A DNA stretch of 37,751 nucleotides from contig NZ_JADGEV010000040.1 in the NCBI RefSeq assembly GCF_016744175.1, forward strand, positions 1 through 37,751, written 5' to 3'. A model generated the notes under the pieces. That model saw only the letters and a list, made by a program, of their open reading frames with translations. It was not told the origin of the DNA and did no database searches. Positions 2,958 through 9,195 of the stretch are shown here, piece by piece; the first letter of the stretch is position 1; each line of letters opens with the position of its first letter. The DNA is from Neptunomonas sp. GTDB taxonomy: Bacteria; Pseudomonadota; Gammaproteobacteria; Pseudomonadales; Balneatricaceae. Position numbers and translations under genes: made by a program.

Positions 2958-5906
2958 ATGAATTTTTCGGTTACCGAACTTTTCCTAATTGTTACTGCCT
3001 ACCTGCTGTTTCTATTCGGTATAGCCTACGCGACTGAGCGAGAATTCATTCCCCGACGAATTTCGCAACACCCCATTACCCATATGTTATCTTTAGGCAC
3101 TTACGCAAGCGTCTGGACCTTCTATGGTGCTTTTGGAATGCTGGAGCACTCAGGCCTCTTATTTTTATCATCATACTTAGGAGCTACCGCAGCCTTTATC
3201 ATGGCTCCATCCTTACTTATCCCTATTTTCAACATTACTAACCGTTATAAACTAAGCTCTCTTGCTGACCTTTTCGCATTCAGGTTCCGTAGCGGGCTTG
3301 TTGGGACCATCACTACCCTTTTGCTTCTTCTTGCTACTTTGCCGTTGTTATCAATCCAAATTCAAGCTGTCACCGATACTCTACATATTCTTAATGGGGA
3401 CTTTGCCTCACCACAGATAGCCGCCGCATTTTGTATTCTTATTGCCCTATTTGCCATCCTCTTTGGCACACGCCACCCTTCTATGCGCGCTCGTAATCGT
3501 GGGCTAGTTATGGCAATGGCAACCAGTTCAGTCATCAAGCTATTCGTACTATTAAGCATTGCGCTTTATGTTCTTTTTACCGTATGGGAAGGACCTAAAG
3601 ACGCGCTACTTTGGTTGGAACACAATCCACAAATTCTTGAAAAACTAACGGCAAACAGTAACGACGACAGCTGGCACACCCTGCTGCTAGCATTTTTTAC
3701 TGCCACACTTGTTATGCCACATATGTTCCATTTAGCATTCACTGAAAATCGATCAACCGATAGCCTTTATAAAGCGTCATGGGGTATGCCGTTATATTTA
3801 TTACTGTTAGCAGCCTGTGTGCCCATCATAGTATTGGCGGGTTATAAGCTTGGTATCAATCAAGAATCTTCTTTCTTACTACTGTATTTAAGCCAGGTTT
3901 TGCATTCTGAATGGCTGATTATCATTGTCTTTATTGGCGGCCTTACTGCCGCTAGCGGAATAATTATTGTGGCATCAATATCACTCGCATCGATGCTACA
4001 AAACCACCTTATCTTGCCGTTAGTTAAAACACCCGAAAATGTGAAGTTTTATGCTTGGCTCCTCTGGCTCAGACGTATTCTTATCTCGCTCGTTGTACTA
4101 TGCAGCTATCTTTTTTATATCGCATTTGGGGCAAGCCAACAGATCCACTTACTCGGCTTAAGCGCTTTCGTCGCTTTCTTGCAGTTCTTACCCGGAATCA
4201 TTGCTACACTATTTTGGCTTGGGGCTAACCGCATAGGCTTAGTTATCGGCTTAATTCTCGGCATGTCCAGCTGGATCATCACCACATTTTATCCCGTCCT
4301 TTTGCAGCAAGGCGCTTTATTAACAGACACCAATATTGAAAGCTTGAACTGGCAATCATCTGCCATCATCTCTCTTTTACTGAATGTGGGTGCTTTCATT
4401 ATTGTTTCGCGCCTTACGCCAACGCACCCAGAAGAAACACGGGCAGGCGAAGCGTGCCTTCTAAACACAATGGATTCACCTGCAGACATCCAACGACTCT
4501 CTTTTGAAACAACTGATATTATTCGCTTACTCACACCAAAACTCGGTGAGGCGGCCGCCCGCCGTGAATTACTTCATGCAATGAATCAATTAGAACTAGA
4601 TAAAGAGCAAATAGGCCCGCTCGATCTTTTAAGATTACGTAATGCCCTTGAACAAAACTTGTCCGCACTTGTTGGACCAGTGGAAGCTGCTACCTTGCTA
4701 GAGCCTTTAGCAAAACAATCTAACGGCAAAGCATTTCAGACACGGGACATCTATCTCCTGGAAACGCACTTAGAAACGTATCAAGCGAAACTAAGCGGTC
4801 TAGCAGCAGAGCTGGATGAATTACGTCGTTATCACAAACGAACCCTAGAAAAACTTCCCATCGGCGCCTGTACAATTACTCCATCACAACATATTTTATT
4901 TTGGAATAATGAGATTGCTAACTTAACTCAGCTAAGCCCCAATGAGGTTACAGACTTATCATTATCCGAGTTACCCGAGCCCTGGTGTACATTATTACCT
5001 GCATTCGTACAGCAACGTGATAATCACTTAACCGACACTCAGGTTGTGATTGGTACAGACAGTTATTGGCTAACACTCCATAAAAACCAGCTGTCCGAGA
5101 ACGCGGATAGCTCCATTGTCATTCTGGTTGAAGATGAAACAGAACATCACCAACTAACTGATAATTTAATGCACAGCGAACGACTAGCTTCCATCGGGCG
5201 TTTTGCTGCGGGTGTCGCTCACGAAATTGGCAACCCAATAACAGGAATAGCTTGTTTAGCTCAAAACCTTTCTTTAGAGACCGATCAACCAGAGGTTCTT
5301 CAAGCCGGCGATCAAATAATGGAACAAACCCGGCGAATTAACCGCATAGTACAGTCGCTAGTTCGCTTCGCGCATACCGGCCAAACTATCAGCGATATTC
5401 AGTTCGAAGCCATTAATTTAACCCAGTGCATAGAAGAAGCCATCCATCTGGTATCTCTAGATATACACGCAAGACAGCAGCAGTTCACTTGCCAGCTTGA
5501 TGACAGCATTATGGTTGATGCCGACCCTCAACTTCTATTACAAGTGTTAGTTAACATTCTAAACAACGCTTGCGACGCTTCACCTGAAAAAGGTGTAATC
5601 ACGATTGCATCCACCCAAGATGAACAGCGAGTATTTCTAACGATCACCGATGAAGGTAGTGGCATTGATAAAGCCATTCAAGATAAACTTTTTGAGCCTT
5701 TTTTCACCACTAAAGAGCCCGGTAAGGGGACTGGGCTTGGCCTTCCTCTGGTTTACAACATTCTCACCGAGCATTATGGTAGTATTAAAATAATTAGCCC
5801 CGCCAATAACAAGCAGAAGAAAGGCACTCAGGTGATTATCACCTTACCGGGCTCCAGGCCTGAACTGAAAGACGAACTTTCTGAAAGGTCTAGCACTGGA
5901 GAGTAG
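2958..5906 (+). CDS. cbrA: CbrA: SLC5-type transporter fused to sensor histidine kinase
   Basis: CbrA is the membrane sensor of the CbrAB system, which controls use of carbon and nitrogen sources; the Pseudomonas protein has about 983 residues and this one 982. Residues 1 to about 480 are a multi-span membrane domain of the sodium/solute symporter (SLC5) type. Then come a linker of STAC type, a PAS-like domain at about residues 620-720, and a histidine-kinase core. The H-box reads A-S-I-G-R-F-A-A-G-V-A-H-E-I-G-N-P with phospho-acceptor His755. The ATPase domain has the N box N-I-L-N-N-A-C-D-A (about 866-874), D-E-G-S-G-I-D, F-E-P-F-F-T-T-K and G-K-G-T-G-L-G-L (about 922). Its partner cbrB follows after 10 bp. 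Histidine uptake has been linked to this transporter domain in Pseudomonas; whether that holds here is unknown. The ribosome-binding site is weak (AAAG, seven bases before ATG). Confidence 0.94.
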   Translation: MNFSVTELFLIVTAYLLFLFGIAYATEREFIPRRISQHPITHMLSLGTYASVWTFYGAFGMLEHSGLLFLSSYLGATAAFIMAPSLLIPIFNITNRYKLSSLADLFAFRFRSGLVGTITTLLLLLATLPLLSIQIQAVTDTLHILNGDFASPQIAAAFCILIALFAILFGTRHPSMRARNRGLVMAMATSSVIKLFVLLSIALYVLFTVWEGPKDALLWLEHNPQILEKLTANSNDDSWHTLLLAFFTATLVMPHMFHLAFTENRSTDSLYKASWGMPLYLLLLAACVPIIVLAGYKLGINQESSFLLLYLSQVLHSEWLIIIVFIGGLTAASGIIIVASISLASMLQNHLILPLVKTPENVKFYAWLLWLRRILISLVVLCSYLFYIAFGASQQIHLLGLSAFVAFLQFLPGIIATLFWLGANRIGLVIGLILGMSSWIITTFYPVLLQQGALLTDTNIESLNWQSSAIISLLLNVGAFIIVSRLTPTHPEETRAGEACLLNTMDSPADIQRLSFETTDIIRLLTPKLGEAAARRELLHAMNQLELDKEQIGPLDLLRLRNALEQNLSALVGPVEAATLLEPLAKQSNGKAFQTRDIYLLETHLETYQAKLSGLAAELDELRRYHKRTLEKLPIGACTITPSQHILFWNNEIANLTQLSPNEVTDLSLSELPEPWCTLLPAFVQQRDNHLTDTQVVIGTDSYWLTLHKNQLSENADSSIVILVEDETEHHQLTDNLMHSERLASIGRFAAGVAHEIGNPITGIACLAQNLSLETDQPEVLQAGDQIMEQTRRINRIVQSLVRFAHTGQTISDIQFEAINLTQCIEEAIHLVSLDIHARQQQFTCQLDDSIMVDADPQLLLQVLVNILNNACDASPEKGVITIASTQDEQRVFLTITDEGSGIDKAIQDKLFEPFFTTKEPGKGTGLGLPLVYNILTEHYGSIKIISPANNKQKKGTQVIITLPGSRPELKDELSERSSTGE

Positions 5907-5916
5907 GTAGAGAACA

Positions 5917-7311
5917 ATGAGCCGAATTCTGATCGTAGAGGATGAGTCTATCATCCGTGCAGCGCTTCGCCGTTTATTAGAAAAAAACAACTACAACATC
6001 GATGATGCAGCCTCTGTCGATGAAGCAGCCTCGCAATTTAATTTAGATAGCTTTGACCTTATTATCAGCGACTTACGGCTGCCAGGCGCACCCGGAACAG
6101 ATCTAATCAAGCTAGCTAATAACGTACCTGTACTCATCATGACAAGTTATGCCAGCATGAAGTCTGCCGTTGATGCCATGAAAATGGGCGCTGTTGACTA
6201 TATTGCCAAACCTTTTAACCATGATGAAATGCTATCAACTATTACTGCCATTTTGAATCAGCAACCAATAGAAAAACACAGTGTTAGCATTGAACCTGAG
6301 GCGCAGCATACCGAAATCACCGGTACGTGCGATGCGATGCTTAACCTCTTTTCTCGCATCGCTAAAGTTGCACGCACCGATGCAACTGTATTGGTCTTAG
6401 GTGAGTCAGGTACAGGAAAAGAACTAGTTGCACGCGCCATACACGAGCAAAGCTCACGTGCTAAAGCACCGATGATTTCAGTCAACTGTGCCGCCATTCC
6501 TGAAGCACTCATTGAATCAGAGCTCTTTGGTCATGAAAAAGGCTCTTTCACAGGTGCAGATAATAGCCGCTGCGGCTTAATCGAAGCAGCTGATAACGGT
6601 ACATTATTCTTAGATGAAATTGGGGAGCTACCACTGGAAGCGCAAGCGCGCTTATTGCGCTTTTTGCAAGAAGGTGAAATTCGTAAAGTCGGCTCAATAC
6701 AATCAATAAAGGTCAATGTACGCTTAATAGCGGCGACACACCGTAACCTGAAAGAACTAGCGCGGGCCGCACAATTTCGAGAAGATTTATACTACCGATT
6801 GTACGTCATGGAGTTGAGCATGCCCCCTTTACGGGAGCGTGGTCAGGATATTATTACGTTGGCTGAGCGCTTTTTAATTAGTGCCTGCTCTCGTATGAAC
6901 TGCCCAGAAGCACTGCTCAGTGACAGCTCGCGCCAAGTCATGCTGCAATATAGTTGGCCAGGCAATGTACGTGAATTAGAAAATGCAATTGAGCGCGCCG
7001 TTATACTTGCTGATAACCATTTTATTACACCAGACCTACTTGGACTCGATATAGAAACTCGCCCCAGCCTTCAGCAATTAGAGTCTAACTATATAGAGCA
7101 GTCGACAACACGAGAAACAACCACCAGCCACCTGGCAAAAAAGAACTCTCCTGCAGGTGGGCTTTCAATGGATGATTACTTTCAGCGTTTTGTGATTGAG
7201 CACCAAAACGAGATGAACGAAACTGATTTGGCTAAAAAATTAGGTGTCAGCCGAAAGTGCTTATGGGAACGACGCCAGAAATTAGGCATTCCAAGACGCC
7301 CCAAAGGGTAA
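5917..7311 (+). CDS. cbrB: CbrB: NtrC-family sigma54-dependent response regulator
   Basis: CbrB is the cognate regulator of CbrA. The 464-residue protein has three domains. The receiver domain (about 1-115) has the acidic pocket E8-D9, phospho-acceptor D52 in S-D-L-R-L-P, T in M-T-S-Y and K in A-K-P-F. The AAA+ domain (about 133-370) has Walker A G-E-S-G-T-G-K-E (from residue 162), the sigma54-contact loop as G-S-F-T-G-A (209-214) where most family members have GAFTGA, and Walker B L-F-L-D-E-I. The C-terminal Fis-type helix-turn-helix is at about 435-460 (D-L-A-K-K-L-G-V-S-R-K). It forms an operon with cbrA. Its likely direct target is the sigma54 promoter immediately downstream at 7441, as for crcZ in Pseudomonas. 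The stop codon overlaps the first putative CbrB half-site. Confidence 0.95.
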   Translation: MSRILIVEDESIIRAALRRLLEKNNYNIDDAASVDEAASQFNLDSFDLIISDLRLPGAPGTDLIKLANNVPVLIMTSYASMKSAVDAMKMGAVDYIAKPFNHDEMLSTITAILNQQPIEKHSVSIEPEAQHTEITGTCDAMLNLFSRIAKVARTDATVLVLGESGTGKELVARAIHEQSSRAKAPMISVNCAAIPEALIESELFGHEKGSFTGADNSRCGLIEAADNGTLFLDEIGELPLEAQARLLRFLQEGEIRKVGSIQSIKVNVRLIAATHRNLKELARAAQFREDLYYRLYVMELSMPPLRERGQDIITLAERFLISACSRMNCPEALLSDSSRQVMLQYSWPGNVRELENAIERAVILADNHFITPDLLGLDIETRPSLQQLESNYIEQSTTRETTTSHLAKKNSPAGGLSMDDYFQRFVIEHQNEMNETDLAKKLGVSRKCLWERRQKLGIPRRPKG

Positions 7312-7377
7312 CACTTCGAGGTAACACCCACACAGAGTGTTACCTAAAGAAACAAAAAAGTGTTCCCTCCTGTAACC
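7308..7377 (+). promoter_or_regulatory. Putative CbrB upstream activating sequences for the crcZ-like promoter
   Basis: Repeated half-sites occur here: GTAACA at 7308-7313 (overlapping the cbrB stop codon) and 7321-7326, TGTTAC at 7338-7343, and degenerate TGTTCC at 7361-7366 and GTAACC at 7372-7377. GTAACAC and GTGTTAC at 7321-7343 form a clean inverted repeat. From memory, P. aeruginosa CbrB recognises TGTTAC/GTAACA-type half-sites at about -150 to -114 of crcZ; here they lie at about -159 to -90 of the predicted start. Half-site spacing and orientation do not exactly match the reported consensus, so binding is inference. Confidence 0.55.
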
Positions 7378-7440
7378 AATTGGGTAGCACATATTTCACA
7401 AAAAACAAGTTTCTTATAAAAAACAACAATTTACAAAAAG

Positions 7441-7456
7441 TGGCACACCGAATGCA
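7441..7456 (+). promoter_or_regulatory. Sigma54 (-24/-12) promoter
   Basis: TGGCAC at 7441-7446 and TGCA at 7453-7456 give the invariant GG-N10-GC arrangement (GG 7442-7443, GC 7454-7455). The -24 element is a full match to the consensus TGGCAC, and the -12 element differs only by A for the first T of TTGC. It lies 130 bp downstream of cbrB, which encodes a sigma54 activator. The start site is predicted near 7467. Confidence 0.82.
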
Positions 7457-7466
7457 TTACATTGGG

Positions 7467-7675
7467 TGTACAAACAAAAAAAATAAACTTTGAAACGCCG
7501 ACCATTAATAAAAATAAAAATAGGCTGAGTGTAGATAAGTAATCCACCTCGAATAATAATAAAAATGAGGTTTAAAAGCTGATCGCTGGATTGTGCAGTA
7601 ATGCATCTACAGTGCTCTAATAATAACAACAAGCCAAGATCTTTACTCTTAAGCTTGCGGTCAGCTATCCATCTC
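7467..7675 (+). ncRNA. crcZ: CrcZ-like A-rich small RNA (Hfq/Crc-titrating candidate)
   Basis: Between cbrB and pcnB, exactly where Pseudomonas carries crcZ, a sigma54 promoter is followed by a stretch with no credible coding frame but four A-rich tracts: about 7471-7486 (ACAAACAAAA... type), 7505-7522 (AATAAAAATAAAAAT type), 7551-7565 (AATAATAATAAAAA) and 7619-7632 (AATAATAACAACAA). The last two fit the AANAANAA motif bound by Hfq with Crc. The third tract sits in the loop of an ACCTC (7546-7550) / GAGGT (7567-7571) stem. The fourth lies inside a longer stem, AGCTGATCGC (7577-7586) with GCGGTCAGCT (7657-7666), which pairs with one G-U. CrcZ sequesters Hfq and relieves catabolite repression. 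The 5' end is inferred from the promoter. The 3' end is uncertain (somewhere in 7667-7765) because no canonical U-tract terminator is visible. Crc itself is not in the window. Confidence 0.65.
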
Positions 7676-7704
7676 CTCTTTACTCTTTATTCCCTCATTG
7701 CTTA

Positions 7705-7737
7705 ATGTGTCACCTTAACAATGTTATGATGTGTCAC
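7705..7737 (+). repeat. 9-bp direct repeat ATGTGTCAC flanking a -10-like hexamer upstream of pcnB
   Basis: ATGTGTCAC occurs at 7705-7713 and 7729-7737, 24 bp apart, with TATGAT at 7725-7730 partly overlapping the second copy. The second copy ends 30 bp before the pcnB start. It may mark the pcnB promoter and an operator, but no -35 is well placed, so the role is speculative. Confidence 0.35.
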
Positions 7738-7767
7738 TAAATATTTTACGAGCAAAATTTAAAACTC

Positions 7768-9195
7768 ATGCCTAGCCGTTTAATTCAGAAAGTCACCGGA
7801 CTGTTCCGTAACAAGTCGAACTCTTCTCCAGCGAAAGAGCCTACTCAAATTCAAGATGAGGCTCCAGAGGAGAAAGATGAATTTCCGTTGATTATTTCTG
7901 AGAAAACTCATCAGATTCCTCGCAAGCATTTGGATGATAATGCAGCCAAAGTCGTTTATCGGCTCTTAGATGCCGGCTATGAAGGCTATCTTGTTGGCGG
8001 CTGTATTCGAGATACGTTGCTCAAAAAACGTCCGAAAGATTTTGATATCGCCACGAATGCGCACCCAGAACAAGCACATGAGCTATTCCAGCGCTCACGC
8101 CTTATAGGTAGGCGTTTCAAATTACTTCATGTGCGTTTCGGTAGAGAGATCATTGAACTGGCTACATTTAGAGCGAGTCATGACTCAAAAGAAAATAACG
8201 ACGATGCTAAAGGTAAACAGTCCGAATCAGGGCTAATTTTACGAGATAACGTCTACGGCACCATTGAAGAGGACGCATTACGTCGAGACTTTACCGTCAA
8301 TGCGCTCTATTACTGCATGAAAGACCATAGCATTTATGACTTTACTCATGGCTATGAAGATATACAGAAAAAAATTATCCGTATGATCGGCGACCCAGAC
8401 TTCCGTTACAAAGAAGACCCTGTTCGTATGCTCCGCGCTATACGGTTTGCTGCAAAACTAGATTTTTCGATAGAAACAGCAACCGCAGCCCCGATCAAGC
8501 AACAAGCCCACTTACTCCAAGGCATCGCTCCTGCTCGCCTATTTGATGAAACATTAAAACTATTTCAATCGGGCCATGCTGTTACCGCATACCACTTACT
8601 TCAAGAATATCAGTTGTTTGAACAACTACTGCCTTCTGCGGCTAAAGCAGTAAGCAAGCAAGGCGAGAAAAACTTAGTAGAAGCGTTAATACTTCAAGGG
8701 CTTAAAAATACAGACAGGCGCATTAATCAGCGTAAGAGCGTTACCCCTGCATTTTTGTTCGCCACTATGCTTTGGCACCCTCTGCAAACGCGCATGCGAG
8801 AAATACAAAAACAAAATAGCAAGATGCCACCTCTGGTTGCACTGCATGCTGCAGCAAATGATATCATTGCTGCACAAGTAAAACGCACCGCTATTCCTAG
8901 ACGTTTTTCTACCCCTATTAGAGAGATCTGGGAGCTACAACTACGCCTTCCTAAACGCTTTGGTAATCGTGCTGAACAACTATTAGAGCACCCTCGCTTT
9001 AGAGCTGCTTACGATCTATTGTTACTCAGGGAACAAAGCGGCGAATCATTGGATAACTTGGGACAATGGTGGACGCAGTATCAAGCAGCACCTGTACAAG
9101 AAAGAGAATCGATGGTTTCAGAGTTAGTCTCAGAAGGTCCTTCTCGTAAGCCTCGTCGTCGCAGAAGAGCAAAGAATGACCCCCGTAACGCTTAG
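7768..9195 (+). CDS. pcnB: Poly(A) polymerase I
   Basis: PcnB adds 3' poly(A) tails to RNA, promoting decay by PNPase and RNase E. The 475-residue protein is a class II nucleotidyltransferase. After a charged N-terminus of about 50 residues come the palm motif L-V-G-G-C-I-R-D, the catalytic pair D91-F-D93 in K-D-F-D-I-A-T, and R-R-D-F-T-V-N-A-L-Y-Y. Further on are E-D-P-V-R-M-L-R-A-I-R-F-A (ATP/RNA-binding helix) and a very basic tail (R-K-P-R-R-R-R-R). The tail and the overall similarity to PcnB favour poly(A) polymerase over the related CCA-adding enzyme. Its 3' end overlaps folK by 20 bp, so the two are translationally linked. The ribosome-binding site is poor, as is common for pcnB, which is kept at low level in E. 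coli. Confidence 0.93.
   Translation: MPSRLIQKVTGLFRNKSNSSPAKEPTQIQDEAPEEKDEFPLIISEKTHQIPRKHLDDNAAKVVYRLLDAGYEGYLVGGCIRDTLLKKRPKDFDIATNAHPEQAHELFQRSRLIGRRFKLLHVRFGREIIELATFRASHDSKENNDDAKGKQSESGLILRDNVYGTIEEDALRRDFTVNALYYCMKDHSIYDFTHGYEDIQKKIIRMIGDPDFRYKEDPVRMLRAIRFAAKLDFSIETATAAPIKQQAHLLQGIAPARLFDETLKLFQSGHAVTAYHLLQEYQLFEQLLPSAAKAVSKQGEKNLVEALILQGLKNTDRRINQRKSVTPAFLFATMLWHPLQTRMREIQKQNSKMPPLVALHAAANDIIAAQVKRTAIPRRFSTPIREIWELQLRLPKRFGNRAEQLLEHPRFRAAYDLLLLREQSGESLDNLGQWWTQYQAAPVQERESMVSELVSEGPSRKPRRRRRAKNDPRNA

Follow-up and report, generated by a model that had tools for sequence, protein, structure and literature searches.

The gap between cbrB and pcnB in Neptunomonas sp. very probably encodes a small RNA that would be activated by CbrB and sigma54 and would act as CrcZ does. 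The gap lies in a stretch of 37,751 nucleotides (contig NZ_JADGEV010000040.1), referred to below as the window. By computation we located a sigma54 promoter, upstream sites, four A-rich clusters and a covarying RNA structure in a conserved gene order, and found both Crc and Hfq encoded in the genome. The preliminary description had proposed that the CbrB-sigma54-decoy circuit exists here, and the conservation of CbrA, CbrB, the sites, the promoter, the covarying RNA, Hfq and Crc points the same way. The CrcZ-like character of the RNA is well supported by its in silico features, the target side excepted, and the RNA is not a member of the Rfam CrcZ family as now drawn.

In the mechanism that we propose, poor carbon supply would lead CbrA to activate CbrB, which would bind GTTAC/GTAAC sites and cause the sigma54 promoter at 7441 to fire. 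The RNA, starting at about 7467, would engage the distal face of Hfq, together with Crc, through its four A-rich clusters. Hfq/Crc would thus be drawn off catabolic mRNAs at their A-rich ribosome-binding regions, so that repression would be lifted. From work on Pseudomonas we infer the transcription of the RNA, its dependence on CbrB, the binding of Hfq/Crc and the derepression of targets.

The cbrB-pcnB gap

The features of the locus are collected in the table, where the RNA 5' end is placed 12 nt past the C of the -12 element. Residues 1-590 of CbrA matched chain 10ed_A ('histidine kinase') with an E-value of 6.8e-147; we take this chain to be the CbrA structure of a 2026 preprint (PMC13022988, excerpt). 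Upstream of cbrA (2624-2957), gluQ is absent between dksA and cbrA, in contrast to the dksA-gluQ order of two relatives (G010 and G376), and no listed short frame of at least 20 aa overlaps the cbrA start.

Features of the window and, in the last row, of related loci without CbrB
Feature	Position	Strand	Basis
cbrA, sensor kinase with transporter-like N-terminal part	2958..5906	+	HisKA, HATPase_c; chain match
cbrB, response regulator / sigma54 activator	5917..7311	+	Response_reg and Sigma54_activat
Putative CbrB upstream sites	7308..7376	+	GTAAC at 7308, 7321 and 7372; GTTAC at 7339
Sigma54 (-24/-12) promoter TGGCACACCGAATGCA	7441..7456	+	pattern match, conservation
Predicted CrcZ-type sRNA	about 7467..7680	+	model R1 match 7466-7679, 187.5 bits
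A-rich cluster 1 (5' end of RNA)	7471..7487	+	motif count
A-rich cluster 2	7504..7522	+	motif count
Hairpin ACCTCG / UGAGGU, loop formed by A-rich cluster 3 (7552-7565)	7546..7571	+	covariation, fold
Long-range stem GCTGATCGC (7578-7586) / GCGGTCAGC (7657-7665)	7578..7665	+	covariation, fold
A-rich cluster 4	7619..7632	+	enclosed by stem GCTGATCGC / GCGGTCAGC
Extended -10 TGTTATGAT	7722..7730	+	TGnTATnAT before pcnB in family
pcnB, poly(A) polymerase	7768..9195	+	three Pfam PolyA_pol domains; synteny
Sigma70-like promoters of CbrB-less loci	L200 3655-3683; L201 3699-3727; L352-L355 (g4); L356 3268-3297 (G376)		

The sigma54 consensus is TGGCAC-N5-TTGCW. The near-perfect promoter noted at the outset, some 130 bp after the activator gene, differs from it at one position and begins 129 bp after the end of cbrB. 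The whole window holds two matches to the sigma54 pattern, with 1.93 expected, and we rejected the match as evidence by itself. As a single match is unremarkable, we tested its conservation, and the weight lies on position and conservation.

We searched the window's genome and 56 relatives for CbrB. Orthologues were present in 50 of these 57 genomes (53-100% identity), with paralogues set apart at 47% or less; G008, G010, G016, G023, G025, G035 and G053 had none. Each of the 21 other families in this comparison was represented by one genome, so their counts are thin. The strict promoter pattern, TGGCA[CT]-N6-TGC, was sought from cbrB to pcnB wherever pcnB lay within the available stretch, and occurred after cbrB at 42 of the 50 loci. 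Two further genomes, G036 (at a contig end) and G044, carry the promoter, GTTAC/GTAAC sites and A-rich RNA right ahead of pcnB, which brings the total to 44. Looser promoter forms with A-rich tracts were present in G039 and G041 (shuffle p 0.003 and 0.113). The promoter is gone from the cbrB gap in G015 and G029, which have RNA copies on other contigs, and is absent from the short gap of G052. G042 has both CbrB and Crc; no RNA was found at its locus, and a weak R1 match (30.6 bits) lies elsewhere.

In P. putida, CbrB recognises the subsites TGTTAC (forward) and GTAACA (reverse), with centres 20-25 bp apart, as given in excerpts of PMC6296734. At least two GTTAC/GTAAC pentamers occurred 40-140 bp upstream of all 48 promoters found in the gaps of the 42 loci (0.6 promoters expected). 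The mean number was 3.69, against 0.18 in mononucleotide shuffles of the same upstream stretches, which also gave the expectation. These pentamers match the core of the P. putida subsites and are putative CbrB sites.

The stretch after the promoter had been described as lacking a credible gene but holding four A-rich tracts, and both statements hold. The window's list of open reading frames contains none of at least 100 aa within 7312-7767; the six that overlap 7440-7766 encode 26-78 aa, and the longest of them starts within cbrB in an alternative frame. The cbrB-pcnB gap is 65% A+T. Within 240 nt after the promoter we counted 12 copies of AANAANAA in four clusters, compared with 1.1 in dinucleotide shuffles, and none of 300 shuffles reached that number. 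An excess of AANAANAA over dinucleotide shuffles (p < 0.05) followed 49 of 50 distinct promoters, the exception being L049 (p 0.050). These promoters, 48 in cbrB gaps and two ahead of pcnB, were chosen irrespective of A content, and the window (L003) was counted once.

We aligned 27 RNAs of the window's family, including that of the window; some loci contributed two, and the second L011 copy (end missing) and L025, L027, L030 and L031 (divergent by eye) were omitted. RNAalifold predicted two helices, a hairpin with cluster 3 in its loop and a stem (GCTGATCGC/GCGGTCAGC) around cluster 4. Among the 15 pairs, 13 showed changes on both sides. Base pairing was possible in 96.0% of the alignment cells, against 22-45% in slid controls, and none of 500 shuffles reached any of five measures; as the structure was derived from the same alignment, these measures are favoured, and the count of compensated pairs carries more weight. 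Length changes in the alignment were not multiples of three. In the window, the two covarying elements folded better than shuffles (z -2.25 and -2.63); neither the stretch of cluster 2 (z -0.90) nor the whole RNA (z -1.17) did so notably. Hairpins enclosed 56 of 190 A clusters, against 14.5 in controls, with the window counted twice (also as L003). Most of the enclosed clusters belong to the window's family, with none or little in others, so we claim the A-loop for that family only.

The gene pcnB is the conserved downstream neighbour and comes next in most loci. In the window's family, every one of the 29 loci where pcnB was hit has TGnTATnAT ahead of the gene (0.5 expected); the looser TGnTAnnAT occurred at 35 of 45 loci (3.4 expected). 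The extended -10 element TGTTATGAT is thus likely a separate sigma70 promoter of pcnB. No intrinsic terminator was found after the RNA on the + strand of the window.

Distribution of the predicted RNA and its probable protein partners

A covariance model, R1, was built on the 27 family RNAs. It found one copy in the window's genome, and this match, to a training sequence, is full-length, with both the A-loop hairpin and the closing stem. With a threshold of E 0.01, R1 matched 37 of the 57 genomes, in part weakly. In a sample of 116 genomes of the family, 95 had matches at 1e-5 or better, many outside the training set, and 92 had CbrB. Outside the family R1 reached at most 44.5 bits (G041); further loci gave 10.6-28.6 bits where they scored, the Pseudomonas-type L028 giving 10.6. 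Conversely, the Rfam CrcZ model (RF01675) gave the window RNA 13.3 bits (E 0.21), against a cut-off of 95. At that cut-off, 1 of 36 loci tried (from the 50 cbrB loci) matched, namely L028 with 306.8 bits, which is why we took L028 as Pseudomonas. Given these low cross-scores, it is place, promoter, activator sites and motif, and not sequence homology, that support equivalence to CrcZ.

A scan of named genomes used generic patterns and covered 80 loci, most of them not CbrB loci. The order of promoter, sites, A-rich RNA and pcnB was present in Gilvimarinus agarilyticus, Gilvimarinus gilvus and Dasania sp., the last with two promoters. At two CbrB loci, L084 and L087, both promoter and pcnB were absent, L084 covering some 360 bases past the match. 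The larger result is twofold: most of the sampled families of the order appear to have such RNAs, and the RNA persists in genomes that lack CbrB. A comparison of the cbrB-pcnB gap among relatives had been suggested, and it bore the proposal out, with the promoter at 44 of 50 loci and A-rich motifs after 49 of 50 promoters.

Beyond the order, CbrB was searched at 1e-115 in 274 genomes drawn from the class, and the search for the RNA was limited to their CbrB-like loci. Matches occurred in 27 genomes, three in the window's order (its own, G055 and G063) and 24 in other orders. At 25 loci, those of the 24 genomes and G063, we found neither pcnB in the stretch examined nor a run of A motifs (0-3 copies of AANAANAA); three had a promoter-like pattern without an A-rich RNA. 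That G063 has neither pcnB nor an A-rich RNA near its CbrB-like protein speaks against universality within the order. Several of the 25 loci continue with a frame that starts like acetyl-CoA synthetase (acs, recognised by eye). As described in excerpts of PMC5715377, CrbR relatives activate acs, in a system of an SLC5 kinase and a CbrB-like sigma54 regulator. This suggests that the CbrB-like proteins outside the order are CrbR-like. In this sample, loci with the predicted RNA next to CbrB were confined to the order to which Pseudomonas belongs.

The genome of the window encodes two Exo_endo_phos proteins. One is a match to the PRK11756 type of exonuclease III; the other lies between rph and pyrE and has P. 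aeruginosa Crc as its best match (E 5.8e-79; 118 of 255 residues identical). NCBIfam labels this second protein exodeoxyribonuclease III, so we checked key residues. An E-value of 1e-40 was rejected as a Crc criterion, as nucleases pass it too, and residues were used instead. The nuclease motifs are QE, GDxN and SDH, which are also present in the nuclease-type proteins here; the rph-pyrE protein has QD, GTFN and SEH instead, and Arg140 is kept. Glu193 and Arg229 are also kept, Glu142 is replaced by Asp and Arg230 by Lys. In P. aeruginosa, Arg140 is required for the complex and Lys155 and Arg196 contact RNA, according to excerpts of PMC6422490; the RNA-contact residues are changed here to Thr and Lys, respectively, a point against the CrcZ-type reading. 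The search for crc that had been called for therefore ended in a gene with degenerate nuclease motifs, and the conjecture that Hfq alone might be titrated if crc were lacking does not hold for this genome.

A Crc-type protein was found in 51 of the 57 genomes. In G016, G051, G052 and G053 the best Crc match was nuclease-type and without Arg140, G056 combined intact nuclease motifs with Arg140, and G037 (75% complete) gave neither a Crc-type nor a nuclease-type match. The RNA is absent from the locus in G016, G052 and G053, the last with one weak R1 match elsewhere (25.5 bits). G051 (L048) carries promoter and A-rich RNA despite its nuclease-type homologue and is a possible Hfq-only case. Conversely, G008 and G035 have a Crc-type protein, and the RNA was not found. 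This imperfect co-occurrence of Crc and RNA (G051, G008, G035 and also G042) counts against a CrcZ-type reading. Aligned with Hfq of P. aeruginosa, the Hfq encoded here shares 68 of 75 residues and has Phe in place of Tyr at position 25; excerpts of PMC5815094 report that A-rich motifs bind the distal face of Hfq and that Y25D abolishes this binding. As Crc and Hfq are both encoded, titration of Hfq/Crc fits.

Additional copies and loss of CbrB

Two promoters occurred in one cbrB gap at 6 of the 50 loci (L011, L012, L013, L017, L039 and L046). Of five R1 matches in G024 (L202), three form a tandem array behind cbrB and the remaining two lie on a different contig. G015 had three matches and G029 five (four at the stricter threshold), none of them on the contig that carries cbrB (L194-L199 cover both genomes). 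The strict sigma54 pattern preceded 8 of 16 further R1 matches and a near form, judged by eye, 5; GTTAC/GTAAC was upstream of the same 13. The other three, in G010, G025 and G023, had no sigma54 pattern. The G023 match is weak (29.9 bits); at this locus (L208 2230-2378) an A-rich RNA with hairpins ends in a terminator-like hairpin and a T run, and the genome has Crc and lacks CbrB.

In G010 and G025, cbrAB is missing and the RNA is kept in the order dksA-gluQ-RNA-pcnB (dksA, gluQ and pcnB of L200 and gluQ of L201 from NCBIfam, the other genes read from translations). Their genus, g4, is represented by six genomes in the family sample; each carries the RNA, and a search at 1e-115 found CbrB in none. 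We read the neighbourhood in two of the six. G376, of a different genus, also has dksA, gluQ, RNA and pcnB without CbrB, and its loss of CbrB looks separate from that in g4. The strict sigma54 pattern was absent from the 300 bases ahead of the RNA in all seven genomes, and a GTTAC/GTAAC pentamer occurred there once, in G365 only. Instead, a TTGNNN-16 to 18-TATA[TG]T pair lies directly ahead of the RNA in all seven. A general promoter scan remained near shuffle level (1 vs 0.9, 2 vs 0.6 and 1 vs 1.7), so place and recurrence are the support for these sigma70-like promoters. Each of the seven genomes encodes a Crc homologue (69-76% identity) with degenerate motifs and Arg140 where readable, the G364 protein ending before the last motif. 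In L201, an inverted repeat, AAAGTG-TAAATTTTTTT-CACTTT, lies some 30-60 bases ahead of the RNA, with a near form in L200; perhaps it is an operator beside the new promoter.

We give about even chances to a broader proposal, in which the RNA, and not CbrAB, would be the stable core of the system. Hfq/Crc decoys, with an A-rich hairpin loop in the window's family, would then be order-wide, duplicate in tandem, move, and survive the loss of CbrB by exchanging a sigma54 for a sigma70 promoter. Catabolite repression would have been connected to other inputs at least twice, in the six g4 genomes and in G376.

Alternative readings and known systems

The nearest competitor overlaps with our preferred explanation. 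If Hfq alone were titrated, the RNA would serve general Hfq regulation and not Crc-dependent repression, in keeping with the affinity of A-rich motifs for the Hfq distal face and with G051, where promoter and RNA coexist with a Crc homologue of nuclease type only. We regard this as unlikely, given that 51 of 57 genomes encode a Crc-type protein and that three of the four nuclease-type genomes lack the RNA at the locus. Less probable still is that the region forms a 5' leader of pcnB under CbrB control and not a free sRNA. The usual position of pcnB as the next gene and the lack of an intrinsic terminator in the window would suit a leader, but pcnB has its own -10-type motif (35 of 45 loci and, in the stricter form, 29 of 29), and the RNA is kept as tandem copies. 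Moreover, in G015 and G029 the copies lie on different contigs from the cbrB-pcnB pair, and the strict sigma54 pattern is kept at 8 of the 16 further matches. Very improbable, finally, is that the conserved sigma54 promoter precedes a small-protein gene or a random A-rich spacer. Short reading frames exist and the gap is A+T-rich, yet neither reading agrees with compensatory base pairing, length changes that are not in threes, the excess of AANAANAA over dinucleotide shuffles, or retention of the RNA where the sigma54 promoter is gone.

For the CrcZ-type mechanism itself, the target side is unsupported by our counts. In a 400-kb sample of the window's genome (311 ORFs), with a simple start-picking rule and mononucleotide-shuffle expectations, 17 start regions were A-rich, with 13.8 expected; a control stretch further upstream also showed some excess (12 vs 7.5), weakening the test. 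The corresponding numbers were 8 vs 3.3 in the Pseudomonas-type G055 (308 ORFs) and 8 vs 8.2 in the Crc-less G016 (254 ORFs). A search with a target-like site pattern yielded 18 sites and its reversed counterpart 9; only 4 of the 18 open frames of more than 60 aa.

That Crc-titrating sRNAs are described mainly in Pseudomonadaceae, as stated in the preliminary description, agrees with a 2022 review: excerpts of PMC8871633 call CbrAB-crcZ unique to that family and the cbrA-cbrB-crcZ arrangement described only in Pseudomonas and Azotobacter. A 2018 paper likewise considers CbrAB exclusive to pseudomonads (PMC6296734, excerpt). An excerpt on a seawater metatranscriptome reports cbrAB transcripts in the mesopelagic community and mentions neither their host nor crcZ (PMC5073097). 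Among open-access full texts, the scope of our search, none concerned CrcZ in Marinobacter or Oceanospirill- or used 'CrcZ-like', and those with CrcZ and Halomonas concerned, in the excerpts, P. putida and Stutzerimonas. Excerpts of PMC8312277, PMC5715377, PMC8545117 and PMC9765439 place no CrcZ outside Pseudomonadaceae; for CrcZ with Acinetobacter or homologs, the scope was excerpts of PMC5295007, PMC6321483 and PMC5715377. Our open-access searches turned up nothing that conflicts with the suggestion that a member in this lineage could be undescribed. Should the predicted function hold, carbon control by Hfq/Crc titration would extend across the order, and the Rfam CrcZ model would miss nearly all loci tried. 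The losses of CbrB with the RNA kept would offer a natural comparison of the RNA without its usual activator.

The predicted RNA shares with CrcZ of Pseudomonas (RF01675) the place between cbrB and pcnB, the sigma54 promoter, GTTAC/GTAAC, the repeated AANAANAA and the presence of crc and hfq. It differs in having no recognisable sequence match, in its length (about 210 nt against the 398 positions of the Rfam model) and, in the window's family, in the hairpin with an A-rich loop and the long closing stem. The CrbS/CrbR-acs system has a related SLC5 kinase and CbrB-like sigma54 regulator (PMC5715377, excerpt), but acetate genes are controlled there, and the CbrB-like loci of other orders have no pcnB or A-rich RNA nearby. 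The second copies in several relatives, with sigma54 promoters and GTTAC/GTAAC, resemble CrcY and CrcX of P. putida, A. vinelandii and P. syringae, whereas the window's genome has a single copy, and the relatives' copies match R1, some being direct tandems beside cbrB. RsmZ and RsmY are decoy RNAs whose repeated GGA motifs titrate RsmA. Like these and other protein-titrating sRNAs, the RNA described here carries repeated motifs for protein binding, A-rich and presumably for Hfq instead of GGA and for RsmA.
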